From: Halobacteriovorax marinus
GTDB taxonomy: Bacteria > Bdellovibrionota > Bacteriovoracia > Bacteriovoracales > Bacteriovoracaceae
Assembly (NCBI GenBank): GCA_002163155.1
Contig: MAAO01000002.1
Coordinates: 1-64,000, forward strand
Reading direction: 5' to 3'
Length of the DNA stretch: 64,000 nucleotides
Under the pieces are notes generated by a model, which did no database searches, was not told the DNA's origin, and saw only the letters and a list, made by a program, of their open reading frames with translations. Numbering within the stretch: the first letter of the stretch is position 1; each line of letters opens with the position of its first letter. The translations under genes and the position numbers were made by a program. This document shows, piece by piece, positions 13,614 through 40,982 of this stretch.

Positions 13614-14201
13614 ATGAAGTATAAATCTTTTCTAAAATACAGCATTGTCGCATCGTATGGAATCTCCATTATGGGAGTGCTATCGATTGTTCATTCATGG
13701 CATTTCTTAGATCTACGCGCAAGTGCAACTTCGCCAAAAGAAATTTCCTTACTTACTCATAAAGGCGGAGAGACTTTAAAGGTTTTACATGTATTGGGGG
13801 AAGGGTGTGGTTGTTCAGAGTTTACCGCGGAGTATCTGTATGAACGAGGAGCAAGAAGTGACATCAGAGAAATTATTTACTTTCTAGGTTCTCAGAAAGA
13901 TTTAGATTTTGACTTTAAATCAAAAGGTTATGAAATTTACTTTAAAACTATGGAAGAAATAAAAAAGAATAGAAAAAAGATAAATGGAGTTCCTCTTTTT
14001 CAAGTTTATTCAAAAGATCATAGTTTACTCTATAGCGGAGGCTATTCAACAAAAATGATTTCTAGAGGAAGTAAATTCATGGACCTTCCAATTATTGATA
14101 AGCTGATGGCAAAGGGGATTGCTCAATCGAACCCTGTTTTTGGCTGTCTCGTAGGTAAGGAATTTGCCAATAGTATCGATCCACTTGGCTTGAAATATTA
14201 A
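13614..14201 (+). CDS. Membrane-anchored protein with a GCGC motif, upstream of a chemotaxis transducer
   Basis: A 195-residue protein with one N-terminal membrane segment (about residues 9-30) and an exported domain. The strand KVLHVLGEGCGC followed by a helix resembles the start of a thioredoxin fold, with Cys-x-Cys in place of Cys-x-x-Cys. A later strand-loop SGGYS, a PVFGC motif and DPLGLKY end the protein. It lies 19 bases upstream of a methyl-accepting chemotaxis gene and is very likely in its operon. Redox sensing or metal binding by the three cysteines, feeding the transducer, is an inference. Confidence 0.7.
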   Translation: MKYKSFLKYSIVASYGISIMGVLSIVHSWHFLDLRASATSPKEISLLTHKGGETLKVLHVLGEGCGCSEFTAEYLYERGARSDIREIIYFLGSQKDLDFDFKSKGYEIYFKTMEEIKKNRKKINGVPLFQVYSKDHSLLYSGGYSTKMISRGSKFMDLPIIDKLMAKGIAQSNPVFGCLVGKEFANSIDPLGLKY

Positions 14202-18509: not shown

Positions 18510-19340
18510 ATGAAAGTATTCAACTATAAAGAAGATCGACTTCCGATTTTAATTATTTCAACTTATTTCCTGATCGATATTTTAATCTACTTAAATGTAG
18601 AGAGTATTCCATTTCTTATCTTCTGGTTCTTCCTAGGGATTTGGCCAAAGGGAAATATTTGTTCATGGAATCATCATCACCAACATTGCCAAACTTTTAA
18701 AACTCCTATTTTTAATAGAATGCTAGAGGTTATGTATGGACTTCAGACGGGAATTTTTGGATTCACGTGGGTGCTTCATCACAACTTAGGTCATCACCTA
18801 AATTACTTAGATCAAGATAAAGATGAATCTCGTTGGAAGAACTCAAAAGGTGATACGATGAAGAGACTTCGCTACACTGCTGAAGTTTCTATTACAAGTT
18901 ATATTAGGGCCTTTAAAGTTGGAAAGAAACATCCAAAGGTTCTGAAGAGATTTCTTATGATGAGTATTACGACTCTAACGATTGTTGGTGCCTTAACTTA
19001 TTATAAACCTATCTCAGCAATCCTCATTTTTTGGATTCCTATGATTGTCTCTCTAGTTCTAACTGCTGATGCTACTTATAGTCATCACACAGGACTTGAT
19101 ACTAAGGACCCTAAGAAGGCGAGCCGAAACATTGTTGATTCTGTTTGGTATAATAGACTGACAGGTAATCTTGGTTACCACACAGCTCACCATGTAAAGT
19201 TTGGAATGCATTGGTCAAAAATGCCAACACTCCATGAGAAAATTAAAGCTGATATTCCAGCAGAGTGTTATGGTAAACCTATGATTCTCTTCCTTGGACT
19301 TGATTGGCTCTCTAAGACCGCTAAGGGTCTAGTGAGTTAA
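18510..19340 (+). CDS. Fatty acid desaturase
   Basis: A 276-residue membrane di-iron desaturase. Histidine boxes are visible: NHHHQH near residues 52-57, HHNLGHH near 88-94, HHTG near 192, and TAHHVKFGMHW near 225. Hydrophobic segments flank them (about 15-45 and 155-185). It would introduce a double bond in an acyl chain at the inner membrane, probably for lipid fluidity. It is a different branch from the paired desaturases at 39-41 kb. It is monocistronic and followed by a strong terminator. Confidence 0.9.
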   Translation: MKVFNYKEDRLPILIISTYFLIDILIYLNVESIPFLIFWFFLGIWPKGNICSWNHHHQHCQTFKTPIFNRMLEVMYGLQTGIFGFTWVLHHNLGHHLNYLDQDKDESRWKNSKGDTMKRLRYTAEVSITSYIRAFKVGKKHPKVLKRFLMMSITTLTIVGALTYYKPISAILIFWIPMIVSLVLTADATYSHHTGLDTKDPKKASRNIVDSVWYNRLTGNLGYHTAHHVKFGMHWSKMPTLHEKIKADIPAECYGKPMILFLGLDWLSKTAKGLVS

Positions 19341-33219: not shown

Positions 33220-34236
33220 TTAGAAATGGTATTCACTCATATTTTCTTTTGTCACATCAGTCCAGCCAGTACCATAGAATAAATTCTTCTTTTCTTTAGA
33301 CATTTTAATTTTTGTAAAACCTTGGACTCTAAGGTTCATTTCATTTTTAAGTTCCATTTTTTCTAAGGCCATTACGGCCATTAAATTCATTACGTATCCA
33401 ACCTTTGCGGGATCCCAGAAAGAAATGAGATCAACACTTCCACTTTCTAGAAACTTTGCACAAATAGATACGACACCAGTGGTTACAAGTGAAACTCGAT
33501 CCTTCAAGCCAAGCTGTTCTATGGCAAGTCCGGCTCCAGATGCCGTGGGCATGGGAGCCCCTAGGATTCCACTTATTTCTGGATTAGTTTTAAGGGCCTT
33601 GGTCGCCTTTGTGAAGGTAATTGAATGTTCATCAGCATTTTCGAGATAATCACCTAGACGACTAATGTCGGGATACTTTTCCCTTTGCCTTTGCTCAGCC
33701 CCTTGTTGCCATTCCATATGAGATTTAGATTTTTTGCTACCAACAAAGGCAATATACTTTCCTTGATAGTTCATGTACTTAGCCAAGTGGTCCATTAGGT
33801 GAGCTCCATATTCTATATTATCGAAAGCCTCGATAATATAATCTACATTTCTTATATTAGAAGCTTCGTGAGCAATCACAACAATTCCCAAATCTCTTGC
33901 TTTCTTTAATACGGGTTCAACAGATTCAACATCAAAGGGAACTATGGTAATAGCATCGACTCCATCCTTAATTGCTTGTTCTATTTGTGCAACTTGGAGT
34001 TCTGCTTTTGCTTCGACAGGACCTATTAGCGTGGCATCGTGCCCTGTTTCGTTAGAAAATTTGTGAACACCTTCACGCATTCTAGAAAACCATGCAATGC
34101 CATCTATTTTTACAATAGTAACAATCTTATATTTCTTTTTGACGTCACTGATCAGATCTTTTGCTTCTTTAATTTTTACTTCTTTTTTACAGCTCATTCC
34201 TATAACTAAAGAGAGAAGAATAATTATCTTGTTCAT
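33220..34236 (-). CDS. Periplasmic sugar/AI-2-type binding protein, copy 2
   Basis: A 338-residue type I periplasmic binding protein with a lipoprotein-like signal (GMSCKK, Cys16). Landmarks are KIVTIVKIDGIAWF, GPVEAKAELQVAQIEQAIKDGVDAI, VVIAHEASN and a C-terminal NMSEYHF, similar in layout to LsrB/RhaS proteins. The acidic residue that LsrB uses to hold AI-2 after the VxxxD strand is replaced by a His-Glu pair, so the ligand probably differs. It is roughly three-quarters identical to its neighbour at 34274, a recent tandem duplicate. No permease or ATPase is nearby. Confidence 0.85.
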   Translation of the reverse strand: MNKIIILLSLVIGMSCKKEVKIKEAKDLISDVKKKYKIVTIVKIDGIAWFSRMREGVHKFSNETGHDATLIGPVEAKAELQVAQIEQAIKDGVDAITIVPFDVESVEPVLKKARDLGIVVIAHEASNIRNVDYIIEAFDNIEYGAHLMDHLAKYMNYQGKYIAFVGSKKSKSHMEWQQGAEQRQREKYPDISRLGDYLENADEHSITFTKATKALKTNPEISGILGAPMPTASGAGLAIEQLGLKDRVSLVTTGVVSICAKFLESGSVDLISFWDPAKVGYVMNLMAVMALEKMELKNEMNLRVQGFTKIKMSKEKKNLFYGTGWTDVTKENMSEYHF

Positions 34237-34273
34237 TTAATTCTCCAATTAAATATTGTGTATAAAGTTCAAG

Positions 34274-35290
34274 TTAAAATGTATATTCGTGCATATTCTT
34301 TTTCGTCACATCAGTCCAACCAGCACCATAGAATAAATTCTTCTTTCTTTTATCAATTTGAACATTCGTATAACCATCAACTCTAAAGTTCATACCGTTT
34401 TTAAACTCCATTTTTTCTAGTGCCATAACGGCCATTAAGTTCATGATGTAACCAACCTTAGAAGGATCCCAAAAGGAAATAAGATCTACACTCCCGCTCT
34501 CAAGATATCTGGAACATGCAGTAACTAAACTTGTCGATACTATTGAAACTTTATCTTTTAAACCAAGCTCTTCTATTGCTAGTCCCGCTCCTGGAGCCGT
34601 ACTCATTGGTGATCCTAGGATCCCGTTGATCTTACGATTTTTCTTGAGCGCTTTTACTGTTTGGGTATAAGCTATAGAGTGATTATCTTTACTTTCTATA
34701 TAGTCACCCTCCCTTGAAATGTTAGGATATTTTTCTCTTTGTCTTATTTCAGCACCGAGTTGCCACTCCATGTGAGTTCTTGAATCTTTACTACCGACAA
34801 AACCAATATACTTACCTTTGTAGTTCATTAATTTAGCTAAGTGATCCATTAAATGACTGCCATATTCTATATTTTGAAAAGCTTCAATTATGTAATCCGC
34901 ATTTTTCATATTTGATGCTTCATGAGCAATAACAACAATTCCTTTCTCTCTCGCCTTTTTTAATACAGGCTCGAGAGCTTCAACATTGAAAGGGACAACT
35001 GCTATGGCATCTGCTCCATCTTTTATTGCTTGCTCTATGTGTGCTATTTGTAGCTCCGCCTTTGCTTCTGTAGGACCTGTTAGAGTAGCTGTATGACCAG
35101 TTTCATTGGCGAATTGATGAACTCCTTCACGCATTCTTGCAAACCATGCAATTCCGTCTATCTTTACGATAGTTACAATTTTGTATTTCTTTTTAACATC
35201 TTTTAAAAGTTCTTTTGCATTACCAACTTCAGCTTTTTTAGTGCAACCGAATAAAACTAATAATGCCATTATTAAGTTTAGTTTTTTCAT
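34274..35290 (-). CDS. Periplasmic sugar/AI-2-type binding protein, copy 1
   Basis: A 338-residue paralogue of the next gene with the same length and domain plan: lipoprotein signal (LFGCTKK, Cys16), KIVTIVKIDGIAWFARMREG, VVIAHEASN, SRTHMEWQLGAE, and NMHEYTF at the end. Both copies share the predicted pocket motifs, though loops differ, so they may bind related ligands. First gene of the operon leading to the CHASE3-PAS sensor. The absence of an ABC transporter favours a sensory role like LuxP, rather than uptake. Confidence 0.85.
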   Translation of the reverse strand: MKKLNLIMALLVLFGCTKKAEVGNAKELLKDVKKKYKIVTIVKIDGIAWFARMREGVHQFANETGHTATLTGPTEAKAELQIAHIEQAIKDGADAIAVVPFNVEALEPVLKKAREKGIVVIAHEASNMKNADYIIEAFQNIEYGSHLMDHLAKLMNYKGKYIGFVGSKDSRTHMEWQLGAEIRQREKYPNISREGDYIESKDNHSIAYTQTVKALKKNRKINGILGSPMSTAPGAGLAIEELGLKDKVSIVSTSLVTACSRYLESGSVDLISFWDPSKVGYIMNLMAVMALEKMEFKNGMNFRVDGYTNVQIDKRKKNLFYGAGWTDVTKKNMHEYTF

Positions 35291-35411: not shown

Positions 35412-36155
35412 TTAAAAATAGAAAGCTATCACTGAAGATAGAATTAAGAGTATCCCAGTCAGTTTTCCAATAAGAATTCCTTTAGGGAAAACTTTTTCTG
35501 CTAAGACATAGAAGGAAATGAGAGCGATCCATGTTAGATCCATTACTCCTGTCACAAAGAGTAGAGACATGAGCGCCCAGCAACAACCGAGACAATAATT
35601 TCCGTGCATGAGGCCCATTCTAAAGCCTCCCAAATTTCCTTCTTTCCATTCATGGGTAAGAAAGTGTAGAGGGGAGCGACACTTCTTAAGACAGGTGTAT
35701 TTTAAGTTACTAAATTGGTAGAGGCCCGCTACAGCTAGGATGATTGAATTAAACATAGTCACGGAACTCTTCATGGAGGAATTTAATATGGCATACTCAT
35801 GTAGTTGCCATTGCACGAGCGTAATGATCAAACTATAGATTGTCCAAATCGCTAGATAACCTGCTACAAAAAGGAAAGTACTTACGTAGGGAACTTTTCT
35901 TTCTTTTCTTCTTCTATTTACCTGATCGTACATGAGTATATAGGGACTAGCTGATGGAATCATCATACCAATCATCATGATCACCCACATTGAGAAGAGC
36001 ATAGTAAGTTGCGGTAAACCCCAAAGAAGAGGTGAGTGACTTTCCATAGCCCGCATCGAGAGCGCCATGAGGATCATATATACCCAGCTCATAAGTGTGA
36101 TCACAAAGAGACAGCTTGAAACTTTAAAGCTATCTCTTGTAAGAAGTGAACTCAT
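35412..36155 (-). CDS. DUF2182 predicted metal-binding membrane protein
   Basis: A 247-residue inner-membrane protein of the DUF2182 family (COG5486): about six membrane segments, MMIGMMIPSASPYILMY near residues 60-77, and GLMHGNYCLGCCWALM near 180-195, with Cys and His positions thought to bind metal. I start at ATG 36155, whose ATGA overlaps the stop of the DUF1326 gene; a TTG at 36167 is less likely. The two families are commonly neighbours. The function is unknown; copper or another soft metal is a guess. Confidence 0.88.
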   Translation of the reverse strand: MSSLLTRDSFKVSSCLFVITLMSWVYMILMALSMRAMESHSPLLWGLPQLTMLFSMWVIMMIGMMIPSASPYILMYDQVNRRRKERKVPYVSTFLFVAGYLAIWTIYSLIITLVQWQLHEYAILNSSMKSSVTMFNSIILAVAGLYQFSNLKYTCLKKCRSPLHFLTHEWKEGNLGGFRMGLMHGNYCLGCCWALMSLLFVTGVMDLTWIALISFYVLAEKVFPKGILIGKLTGILLILSSVIAFYF

Positions 36156-36769
36156 CCATTTGGCCAAGTGACATCTGCCTTAGCTGCAAACTTTCCAGGG
36201 TGTTTAAACTTTAAATCCTTATGAGACAACTCCATGGAGTCTGTGGTGCAAATGGCTCCATCATTCCATAGGAATCCTCCGCCAGGGTAAGTAATGTGAA
36301 CATTTTGATCATCACCAGTTATGGGATGTTTTATGGGGGTATTCTTTAAACTAAGAACTCCTTCTATATTTACCGAAGGATTTCTTCCCGATAGATCCAT
36401 TTTAATATCTGCTCTTACAGGTCCTTCAAAAGTACTAAATGTTGTGGCCAATGCTTCAAAAGGCATTCCTCCCGATTGACCTGAACAAATAGAACCCATC
36501 GCTGAAACTTGCTCATCGGAGGCATCTTGATTAATAAATAATACGCCGGAGCCATTTCCTTCATGTATTGCCTTAGGCCACATAATTCCCATGGCTATCT
36601 TCACTCCGGAGAGATCTACATTTTCATGTTTTCCTTTCTTCACTTCAAAACAAATTAAGGCCTCACAGGACCCAAAATCTGGAAAACCCGCAAATTGGCA
36701 ACCACAACCATGATTACAATTACAAGCTTCTGTATAGTCCATTTCAAGTTTCCAATTACTATCAGACAT
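36152..36769 (-). CDS. DUF1326 protein
   Basis: A 205-residue protein of the DUF1326 family, defined by the Cys-rich start EACNCNHGCGCQF and C-terminal beta strands. GCGAGG lies before the ATG at 36769, so I start there and not at 36832. It is translationally coupled to the DUF2182 membrane protein, and the pair likely handles a metal or redox cofactor at the membrane. No signal peptide is seen. Confidence 0.88.
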   Translation of the reverse strand: MSDSNWKLEMDYTEACNCNHGCGCQFAGFPDFGSCEALICFEVKKGKHENVDLSGVKIAMGIMWPKAIHEGNGSGVLFINQDASDEQVSAMGSICSGQSGGMPFEALATTFSTFEGPVRADIKMDLSGRNPSVNIEGVLSLKNTPIKHPITGDDQNVHITYPGGGFLWNDGAICTTDSMELSHKDLKFKHPGKFAAKADVTWPNG

Positions 36770-36866
36770 AATGACCTCGCTAGATAAAGTGTATGTCTTG
36801 ATTGTACTCTTGTTCTCTAGCGGGAGATTCATAAGATTTTATCAAGAAGGCTAGATGAAACTAAAA

Positions 36867-37410: not shown

Positions 37411-38418
37411 ATGCAGGAAATTGATATCTTTGATGAAGTCATGCTCTCAAGACAATTAGAAGTACAAAAGAGTAAAGGCTGGGACCTAGATAAAGACCTT
37501 AATTGGTCTGGGGGAGTCGATTTATCTAAATCCTTGCTGCCATTAAATCAGAACAATATGTTATTTCCAAATGCCACTAGTGAGCAGAAGTTAGTTATTT
37601 CACAATTGATGGGACTTATTGTCGCCTCTTCAATTGCTCAACTTGAACAAGTGGCAAATGATTTAAAAGAACCTACTTGGAATCGTTTTTTAAGAAAGTA
37701 TCCAGTCAATCCTGAACTCTTTGAGTTAGGTGAACATTTCTATGAAGATGAAATGAAACACTCAATGGCATTCAATCGCTATATCGACAGCTTTGCTGCG
37801 CAAGTAAATGTTGATCCTAGTGATTTAAGACAATTTCTCCCTCAAGCAAATAATTCAATCGCAACGCAAATCTATAAATTAAATTCGTTAGCAGGCGGTA
37901 TGGCCATATGGTGGTTGATCGCTGCTGTGGAAGAAGAATCAATACTTATATATAAATATATGAAAGGTATGAAAGGTTCAGTTGATCCTCTCTACTATCA
38001 ATTACATAAACTTCACTTTGAAGAAGAAGTTAGACATAAGAGTTATGCTTTTATGATGTTAAAAGTTCATGAAGAATTTTCTAATACTCCGCAAAGCTTA
38101 CTACTCAAAAAGTTAGATTTCATTATAGCTGAAGTTCTTAATTTAACTTGGACATTTAACCAACTCTTTAAAATTCGAAATTTCAAGAAGTTCGAAAATC
38201 ATCATCCATTCTTTAAAACTTTAGCATCTTTAGAAGGAATGCTAGGGCAGAGAAATCCTTTGGAAATTATCAATTGTTTATTTAAAGATACTCCGTATAT
38301 TTCAAGTGCACTTCATATGTCGGAACAAAAACATGTGAAAGAGCTCCTCGATAGATTTGGAGTACCAAGCATTCCTCTCTCTAAAACAAAGACGGTTGGT
38401 GAATTATGTACTGCATAG
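37411..38418 (+). CDS. AurF-like di-iron oxygenase
   Basis: A 335-residue cytoplasmic helical protein of the AurF/diiron-oxygenase type (PF11583). Candidate ligands are Glu79, Glu114-x2-His117, Glu175, His202-x3-Glu206-x2-His209. Their spacing is the same as I recall for AurF (Glu101, Glu136, His139, Glu196, His223, Glu227, His230). AurF oxidises an aryl amine to a nitro group; relatives hydroxylate other substrates, so the reaction here is open. It leads a four-gene operon with a hydrolase and two membrane desaturases, all overlapping. AAGGA lies seven bases before the ATG. A role in making a modified lipid or a small defensive metabolite is inferred. Confidence 0.85.
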   Translation: MQEIDIFDEVMLSRQLEVQKSKGWDLDKDLNWSGGVDLSKSLLPLNQNNMLFPNATSEQKLVISQLMGLIVASSIAQLEQVANDLKEPTWNRFLRKYPVNPELFELGEHFYEDEMKHSMAFNRYIDSFAAQVNVDPSDLRQFLPQANNSIATQIYKLNSLAGGMAIWWLIAAVEEESILIYKYMKGMKGSVDPLYYQLHKLHFEEEVRHKSYAFMMLKVHEEFSNTPQSLLLKKLDFIIAEVLNLTWTFNQLFKIRNFKKFENHHPFFKTLASLEGMLGQRNPLEIINCLFKDTPYISSALHMSEQKHVKELLDRFGVPSIPLSKTKTVGELCTA

Positions 38419-39302
38419 ATTCTATATACCGAGAGGGTGAATACATACACTTTATAAATATTCCCAGTGATAATGTGAATGCTCCCATACTATTTATGAG
38501 TCACGGTTTTCCTGATAATGCTTACGGATGGGATAAGCAAATGGAAGAGTTTGAAGGGCAATACCATATCATCGCCCCATTCATGCATGGAACTTTAAAT
38601 AACAATAGAGTTGAAAATACTCGTATAAAAGCGAAGCCCTTACAAAGAGATGTCCTCGCAGTTATAGAAGCAGCTCAGTATAGTCCTGAAACAGAAATTA
38701 TCTTAATAGGTCACGATTTAGGCTGTTTTTTAAATAATGTAATCTATAATAAATTAAAAAAGAGAGTAATAGGAATTGTTAATTTAAATGGACTTCCTCT
38801 TGCACAATACTTTGAGCGAAAATTGAATATCACTCAATGGGTAAAGTCTTACTATGTTTTTTTAGTCCAATCATTTCTTGGGCGCTATGTAGTAAAAAAG
38901 ATGATGCCTAATGTACTTTTAAACTTTATTTATAATCAAAGTCAACTAGATCCTTCTGATGATATTAGAAATAATGATAGCCGTGTTTTTAGAGGTATTT
39001 ATATTTATCAAGTGCTATTTTTTAGAATTTTTAGTTACTTCTTTAAAAAAATCGTAAAAATAAAAGCACCAACTGTTTTCATTTGGGGCAATAGAGATAA
39101 ATTCTTAAATATTCCAAATAGAGATGAGGTTGAGAAATTTCATACTGATGCCGTCGTTAGAGTTATTGAAGGTGGTCATTGGGTATTGCGCTCAAATAGT
39201 TCTCATGTGAATAGAATTTTAGATACGACTTTAATACGTTGGCAAAAAAATGGCCCTAGTACAACTTCTAAAGCAACGTTGATAGGAGTTAAGTATGAAT
39301 AA
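38406..39302 (+). CDS. Alpha/beta hydrolase with an Asp nucleophile
   Basis: A 298-residue hydrolase without a signal peptide. The nucleophile elbow is GHDLG (Asp104) as in epoxide hydrolases and haloalkane dehalogenases. The oxyanion turn is HGFPD (33-37), a likely acid lies in WGNRDKF, and the base in GGHWVL near the C-terminus. Asp-nucleophile members open epoxides, so the gene may act on an epoxide or a related oxygenated intermediate made by the neighbouring di-iron enzymes. Its ATG lies 13 bases inside the end of the upstream gene. Confidence 0.85.
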   Translation: MYCIDSIYREGEYIHFINIPSDNVNAPILFMSHGFPDNAYGWDKQMEEFEGQYHIIAPFMHGTLNNNRVENTRIKAKPLQRDVLAVIEAAQYSPETEIILIGHDLGCFLNNVIYNKLKKRVIGIVNLNGLPLAQYFERKLNITQWVKSYYVFLVQSFLGRYVVKKMMPNVLLNFIYNQSQLDPSDDIRNNDSRVFRGIYIYQVLFFRIFSYFFKKIVKIKAPTVFIWGNRDKFLNIPNRDEVEKFHTDAVVRVIEGGHWVLRSNSSHVNRILDTTLIRWQKNGPSTTSKATLIGVKYE

Positions 39303-40164
39303 GTTTAAAAAAGATCCATTCTATCTCTTAAAGTATTGCTTAAAGACTATATTGATTCTTTCAATTCTAAGCGCCATTCTATTTTTGACTCGAGGATTTG
39401 ATCTTTCATTTAACTTTGAAACTTGGATGATTATTCTTCCTATATTAGGAGCCGTTCTATGTGGTTATCCTTCAAGTATTTTACATAACTGTGCCCATGG
39501 TAATACGGGGACTCGTTTACAAAATGACCTAGTTGGAGAAATTCTCGGAACGGTCATGTTATATGGTTTTGGTGGATTTCGCCTAGGACATATGTTTCAT
39601 CATAAATTTCCAGATGACCCTCTTATGGATCCACATCCGCCCAGGGGTTACTCTTTCTTTTTCTTTCTATTGTCACCAGTAAAGGCAACTTTAGGAGTAA
39701 TTGAGCGTAGTTACTTTTCTTATTTTGGAGAAAATAAAACTACTCGCACCAATATTCAATTGCAAAAGATAGCATTTAATATAAGTATTATTCTGCGCGT
39801 TCTCTTTTGGTACTTACTACTTGGAAGTGAACTCTTTGTACTTTTCTATATACCTATGTATGTCTTAAATATCTTTGTCTTCGCTCATATTAATTATGCT
39901 ACTCATATTGTAAATGATGACGGCAGCTCAGAGATTGTAAATTTAAATAATAATTACTACTACAAAATCGTGAACAAGATTTCCTTTGGAGGTTACTTTC
40001 ACAAGAATCACCATAGAAGACCTCAGGTGTATAATCCTTCAAAAATTCAATTAAAGAATGATGTTGATTATATTACTTATATTCCAACAAATATCCAAGA
40101 AGACAAGAAACCAAGTTTCATTGAGTCTTTACTCAGTGGTTTAACAGGAGTTTTAAAGTCATGA
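39295..40164 (+). CDS. Membrane fatty acid desaturase/hydroxylase, first of a pair
   Basis: A 289-residue membrane di-iron enzyme. His boxes are HNCAH (64-68), HMFHH (about 98-102) and FHKNHHR (about 234-240), plus NYATH. Hydrophobic segments lie at about 15-32, 43-62, 105-120 and 160-195. It could desaturate, hydroxylate or otherwise oxidise an acyl chain. AGGAG precedes the ATG, which overlaps the hydrolase stop. Related to the next gene over its whole length (shared KDP start, HPP-xG, Y(F)HKNHH and YNPSK motifs). Confidence 0.88.
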   Translation: MNKFKKDPFYLLKYCLKTILILSILSAILFLTRGFDLSFNFETWMIILPILGAVLCGYPSSILHNCAHGNTGTRLQNDLVGEILGTVMLYGFGGFRLGHMFHHKFPDDPLMDPHPPRGYSFFFFLLSPVKATLGVIERSYFSYFGENKTTRTNIQLQKIAFNISIILRVLFWYLLLGSELFVLFYIPMYVLNIFVFAHINYATHIVNDDGSSEIVNLNNNYYYKIVNKISFGGYFHKNHHRRPQVYNPSKIQLKNDVDYITYIPTNIQEDKKPSFIESLLSGLTGVLKS

Positions 40165-40982
40165 ACTTCTATAAGAAAGATCCCAATTACTTTTTAAATT
40201 ACTTTAAGGGAAATCTCGTTTTATTTTCTATCCTGAGTGGATTGTTGCTAATTCTTAGAAAAGATTTCTTCTACTTTGAATTTCACCTCTATCAAATTGC
40301 AATAGTACTTTCTGGAATTGTTTTTGGATTAATTATTGCTACGACCTTTCACAATACTTCTCACGGAAATATTAAGCCTCGTTGGTTAAACACTGTCATC
40401 GGTGAATTTTGTGGAGCTTATACTTTAGATGGGATGCGCAACTTCAGAGTAGGTCATATGCTTCATCACATACACACTGATGATCCAGAACTAGATCCAC
40501 ATCCTCCGCTAGGACTTTCTTTTATTCAATTTATTATCACTTCTAAAGACAAAACTATTGAAGTGTTGATTAATGCTTATTTTAAATTTCACGGTAAGTC
40601 TCAGGAAAGCGAAGCGAATATTAAATCACAAATCCTCATCTATAAGTTGGGAGTTGTAAGTAAAATACTCTTTTGGTTTCTCTTATTTGGACCAGTGGGC
40701 TTTTTGATTTTCTATATACCTTCGTATCTGTCTTACTTCTTAGGTTTTGCTCATTTAAATTATATCTCTCATCAACCAGATGAATCCGGAGACGTTGTGG
40801 TTAAGAATCATGATGGAACGGTTTTCTATAAGATTATGAATGCTTTAACTGCTGGTGGTTACTATCACAAGAATCACCACCTCTTTCCAGGACTCTATAA
40901 TCCTAGTAAAGCGTTTGCCAAAAGAGAGTTGAGAAAAGAGCAGAGAAAAGTTAAAGCAAGTATAGGGGCGATTGAGATCTAG
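40161..40982 (+). CDS. Membrane fatty acid desaturase/hydroxylase, second of a pair
   Basis: A 273-residue paralogue of the upstream gene, coupled by an ATGA overlap. His boxes are HNTSH (about 68-72), HMLHHIH, and YHKNHH near residue 235, so all iron ligands appear present. The first box differs from its partner (TS for CA), suggesting a different position or substrate. Two consecutive oxidations of one chain are a natural reading of a tandem pair. AGGAG precedes the ATG. The operon ends here, three bases from a convergent gene. Confidence 0.88.
   Translation: MNFYKKDPNYFLNYFKGNLVLFSILSGLLLILRKDFFYFEFHLYQIAIVLSGIVFGLIIATTFHNTSHGNIKPRWLNTVIGEFCGAYTLDGMRNFRVGHMLHHIHTDDPELDPHPPLGLSFIQFIITSKDKTIEVLINAYFKFHGKSQESEANIKSQILIYKLGVVSKILFWFLLFGPVGFLIFYIPSYLSYFLGFAHLNYISHQPDESGDVVVKNHDGTVFYKIMNALTAGGYYHKNHHLFPGLYNPSKAFAKRELRKEQRKVKASIGAIEI

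Follow-up and report, generated by a model that had tools for sequence, protein, structure and literature searches.

Four open reading frames on the + strand of the window, the 64,000-nucleotide stretch of Halobacteriovorax marinus DNA analyzed here, overlap by 13, 8 and 4 nt according to the ORF reading and form one operon, as the earlier note on this DNA had recognized from their end-to-end overlap (Table 1). They encode an AurF-like di-iron protein, an alpha/beta hydrolase and two membrane desaturase-family proteins, and the Pfam family calls for all four scored above the curated cut-offs. Upstream lies a divergent gene pair, of which the near gene starts at 36832, and downstream the operon faces a pseudouridine synthase gene in convergent orientation, which ends 3 bp past the last operon stop. 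Because of these divergent and convergent flanks, the operon comprises exactly the four genes. No gene for a ligase, a carrier protein or a transporter was found among the ten neighbours scanned (30.8 to 45.4 kb), in agreement with the earlier note. Bacterial polyyne clusters contain an acyl-AMP ligase, an acyl carrier protein and a thioesterase beside the desaturases. None of these three was present among the ten window neighbours, and nothing points to the polyyne-like product that had been considered in that note.

Table 1. Genes of the operon and the gene pair upstream of it
Feature	Position	Strand	Basis or context
AurF-like ferritin-fold di-iron protein, 335 aa	37411-38418	+	Pfam AurF, seven ligands, model
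Alpha/beta hydrolase, epoxide-hydrolase type, 298 aa	38406-39302	+	5ng7 match, catalytic set
DesA (name used here), first membrane di-iron desaturase-family protein, 289 aa	39295-40164	+	FA_desaturase, His set, own clade
DesB (name used here), second membrane di-iron desaturase-family protein, 273 aa	40161-40982	+	FA_desaturase, His set, own clade
DUF1326 gene overlapping PpoB2-family (copper chaperone) gene	35412-36832	-	Upstream, divergent from operon, 578-bp gap

Further upstream, two adjacent and closely similar genes for periplasmic sugar-binding-type proteins of 338 aa each (33220-35290, - strand) represent a tandem duplication, with no transporter seen alongside.

Catalytic residues and structural relatives

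The AurF-like protein scored 34.6 bits against the Pfam family AurF (PF11583; cut-off 29.6). The complete seven-ligand set that had been noticed earlier is present (E79, E114, H117, E175, H202, E206 and H209) and was invariant in an alignment with 11 relatives. Its spacing, E-35-E-3-H followed by E-27-H-4-E-3-H, appears to be that of AurF itself and is kept exactly in 29 of 35 members of the wider family. The ligands of AurF in this comparison are E101, E136, H139, E196, H223, E227 and H230. In the literature, the AurF residues H139, H230, E196, D135 and D226 are given (PMC12101540). In the AlphaFold model (mean pLDDT 86), the protein is predicted to adopt a ferritin-type fold that is closest to CmlI (Z 19.2) and AurF (Z 18.1) in structural comparison, with R2-type proteins reaching 16.5 or less; Foldseek alone returned no match to the model at E 0.001 or better. 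Fold, the seven ligands and their spacing are shared with the di-iron N-oxygenases AurF and CmlI of PF11583, whereas the identity in the structural alignment is about 11-13% and the partners of the window protein are an epoxide hydrolase and desaturases. Against a second family, PF10118 (Metal_hydrol), the protein reached 28.4 bits and stayed below the cut-off of 33.2, which its relatives from G003 and G001 barely reached.

The hydrolase scored 39.8 bits against Abhydrolase_1, above the curated cut-off, and its best solved relative is the epoxide hydrolase 5ng7 (E 2.9e-13). The nucleophile Asp104 lies within GHDLG and is invariant, together with the HGxP motif (H33-G34-P36), Y150, Y201 and the base H258, in 24 relatives from both cassette types described below; the acid D231 is at least 90% conserved in the same set. 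Judged from the 5ng7 alignment and established knowledge of the family, Y150 and Y201 probably form the lid pair that holds the epoxide. By its catalytic set the protein is an alpha/beta-fold epoxide hydrolase with predicted activity, and since this full set is conserved, its earlier description as epoxide-hydrolase-like with an Asp nucleophile is now better founded. The best NCBIfam match is the epoxide-hydrolase half of PRK05855, the model of EphD-type EH-SDR fusions, but the score of 65.5 bits is far under the model cut-off of 455, the window hydrolase is unfused and the window cassette has no SDR.

DesA and DesB scored 80.7 and 83.6 bits against FA_desaturase (PF00487), both above the curated cut-off, which upholds their previous reading as paired membrane di-iron desaturases. 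Both keep H64/H68, H99/H102/H103, N200/H204 and H236/H239/H240 (DesA numbering), a His/Asn pattern that we take to be the ligand pattern of SCD1, and the His set is invariant in 21 proteins. Their first His boxes had been described as somewhat different; they read HNCAH and HNTSH and vary only between the ligands, the ligand set itself being identical. A desaturase structural model (pLDDT 88) gave its highest Z score with a chloroplast FtsHi motor complex subunit (11.6), followed by AlkB (9.9) and SCD1 (8.9); the latter two tie, and the sequence matches are weak and fall on desaturases and hydroxylases alike. The two proteins resemble membrane fatty-acid desaturases and AlkB-type hydroxylases in family score, full His set and SCD1/AlkB fold, but differ from the characterized enzymes of PF00487 in being a short paralogous pair without a close characterized relative. 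In a tree, DesA and DesB form one clade each (100/99) across ten cassettes, apart from free tandem desaturase pairs. The source genome contains 11 desaturase-family genes, and another fatty-acid-desaturase gene lies in the window at 18612-19262 on the + strand.

Distribution and modular composition of the cassette

The earlier note had made its reading depend on finding the same four-gene order in other genomes. The four genes are conserved together, in the same order and usually overlapping, in nine genomes of a single Bdellovibrionota family, including that of the window (G000, G001, G002, G003, G023, G113, G114, G119 and G120), and the reading thus withstands the refutation by lack of conservation that the note had named. 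In a further genome (G059) the order is kept and three genes are intact, with the AurF-like gene split between two frames, either through decay or through a fault of the assembly. All AurF-like proteins from intact two-desaturase cassettes group in a single clade (100/99), and those of G017 and G136, in which the AurF-like/hydrolase pair is accompanied by a single desaturase of another lineage, stand apart on long branches. The G120 cassette is extended by a second, divergent tandem desaturase pair adjoining the AurF-like gene, so that four desaturase-family genes lie together. In G004, a member of the same genus, the site is cleanly empty (13695-13748), with the flanks of the G001 cassette about 50 bp apart; in the window's genome the cassette is located elsewhere and the G001-type site is filled by other genes. 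In the phylum-wide sample, relatives of the AurF-like protein are present in 33 of 369 genomes. About 85,000 species genomes were also scanned with short peptide patterns, which would fail to detect distant relatives. The named records of the loci returned belong to Bdellovibrionota or to unplaced MAGs, and at this sensitivity the cassette is apparently limited to one phylum.

Besides these cassettes, 15 complete loci over the phylum contain the AurF-like/hydrolase pair with a different continuation: in place of the desaturases come an M24 metallopeptidase-like protein, which has MetAP-type metal ligands, and an SDR. The window's own genome has one locus of this type (G000 contig C9, 4921-8459), and mixed endings of desaturases with M24 and SDR genes occurred in none of the loci compared. 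The AurF-like/hydrolase pair is thus a separable module with two alternative second halves, a feature that the earlier note missed. Of the EH-SDR fusion model PRK05855, one half is matched by the window hydrolase and the other by the SDR of these sister cassettes, in which hydrolase and SDR are separate genes.

A related arrangement was found in G007 and G036, where hydrolase, M24 and SDR genes are clustered with a di-iron protein of PF10118; in G034 and G016 a like cluster is interrupted by contig ends, and in G023 the four corresponding genes are split over two places. The hydrolases of these loci retain the Asp nucleophile, and a ferritin-fold di-iron protein, either AurF-like or of PF10118, repeatedly adjoins this type of hydrolase. 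The PF10118 proteins take the position of the AurF-like protein next to homologous hydrolase, M24 and SDR genes and have a similar ExxH...HxxxExxH motif, but their ligand spacing is different and the window protein is under the cut-off of their family. We found no characterization of PF10118 in the literature.

Two wider associations were considered and rejected. On the - strand of G023 contig C155 (6046-12951), genes for a type III polyketide synthase, an RND-type transporter, an FAD oxidoreductase and a START-domain protein continue into PF10118 and M24 genes, apparently as one operon. This did not extend to a general association with type III polyketide synthases: a gene over the cut-off is present in 25 of 59 relatives, and it is absent from the cassette-bearing G001 and from the M24/SDR-type f3 genomes. 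On plasmids, the sole match to the AurF-like protein was a Caballeronia protein with 24% identity, whose pairing is different because the neighbouring hydrolase includes a LuxR domain and lacks an Asp-nucleophile motif. Plasmid PF10118 genes occur in mixed contexts, and the two adjacent hydrolases that were read there lack the HGxP/GHDxG motifs.

Proposed function and alternative readings

We consider oxidative tailoring of a long acyl (lipid) chain, which is desaturated and oxygenated before the resulting epoxide is opened to a diol, to be the best reading of the operon, with a probability of roughly 0.45. We infer the substrate, the order of reactions and the product, as well as the role of the AurF-like enzyme as epoxide source for the hydrolase. 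One or both membrane di-iron enzymes would introduce C=C bonds; one of them may be a hydroxylase. The soluble AurF-like enzyme would then oxygenate the chain with O2, most likely by epoxidation of a C=C bond. Asp104 of the hydrolase would attack the epoxide, with Tyr150 and Tyr201 holding the epoxide oxygen, and yield a vicinal diol. The set may oxidize a chain repeatedly, as was proposed in the earlier note. An acyl-chain epoxide is expected mainly because EphD-type fusions consist of two halves that are matched by the hydrolase and the SDR, respectively; epoxystearic acid is cleaved by EphD, which also alters epoxymycolates (PMC7998700). The desaturase-family partners likewise point to an acyl chain. 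Against this reading, the characterized AurF-family enzymes that we found in the literature, AurF, CmlI and DnfA, are all N-oxidizing, and no redox partner, carrier or ligase gene lies inside the operon. Moreover, the AurF-like/hydrolase pair also exists without desaturases, so that these need not supply its substrate.

N-oxidation is a serious rival, since the literature regards the set of three His and four carboxylates as largely confined to N-oxygenases (PMC12101540), and both ligands and fold of the AurF-like protein are as in AurF and CmlI. The enzyme might convert an amine, in an amino lipid or an amino-acid-derived compound, to a hydroxylamine, oxime or nitro group, with the hydrolase and the desaturases acting elsewhere on the molecule. 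However, the PF10118 proteins in the sister loci have a similar motif at different spacing, so that its occurrence extends beyond the known N-oxygenases. In addition, it is an epoxide hydrolase that is conserved as the partner, and the operon has no gene to supply an amine. We regard an N-oxygenase as unlikely.

About equally improbable is a catabolic or protective operon that degrades or detoxifies oxidized lipids, for example from prey, instead of building a product. The relatives belong to the Bdellovibrionota, a group rich in predators, detoxification is common among epoxide hydrolases, and the M24 metallopeptidase-like protein and SDR that end the sister cassettes would fit as well. Desaturases, however, are anabolic as a rule, and no beta-oxidation, ligase or uptake gene was seen among the ten neighbours scanned. 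It is still less probable that one transcription unit serves two functions, with the AurF-like protein and the hydrolase on one side and desaturases for membrane fluidity on the other. The AurF-like/hydrolase pair is known without desaturases, and paired desaturases occur without that pair in G010 and G030, but the order is fixed in nine genomes with overlapping genes, and the cassette desaturases form clades of their own. A CylC-type halogenase with a dehalogenase-like hydrolase as partner is very improbable: enzymes of this type resemble AurF and have acyl chains as substrates (PMC12101540), and the hydrolase has a weak likeness to haloalkane dehalogenases, but the Gln that precedes the first ExxH in CylC-type enzymes (QExxH) is replaced by Asp113 in the window protein and by Asp or Glu in its relatives, and the presence of two lid tyrosines is characteristic of epoxide hydrolases.

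For acyl-chain tailoring, the wider form of the proposal is more doubtful: the AurF-like enzymes of Bdellovibrionota might oxygenate carbon, by epoxidizing or hydroxylating an acyl chain, unlike their known N-oxidizing relatives, and together with a dedicated epoxide hydrolase and one of two alternative second halves might form an oxidized lipid new to science in predatory-type bacteria. All components of the operon are of known kinds. Our literature search found nothing on this gene set, and as far as this search shows, neither the gene combination and its modular alternative nor its apparent confinement to a single phylum has been described. The cassette offers a genomic handle on the uncharacterized di-iron family PF10118, whose members are encoded next to homologous genes for an epoxide hydrolase, an M24 protein and an SDR. 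The product of the operon may be an oxidized lipid of a new type, and for the Bdellovibrio group the four genes provide a concrete route to a new lipid or other metabolite.
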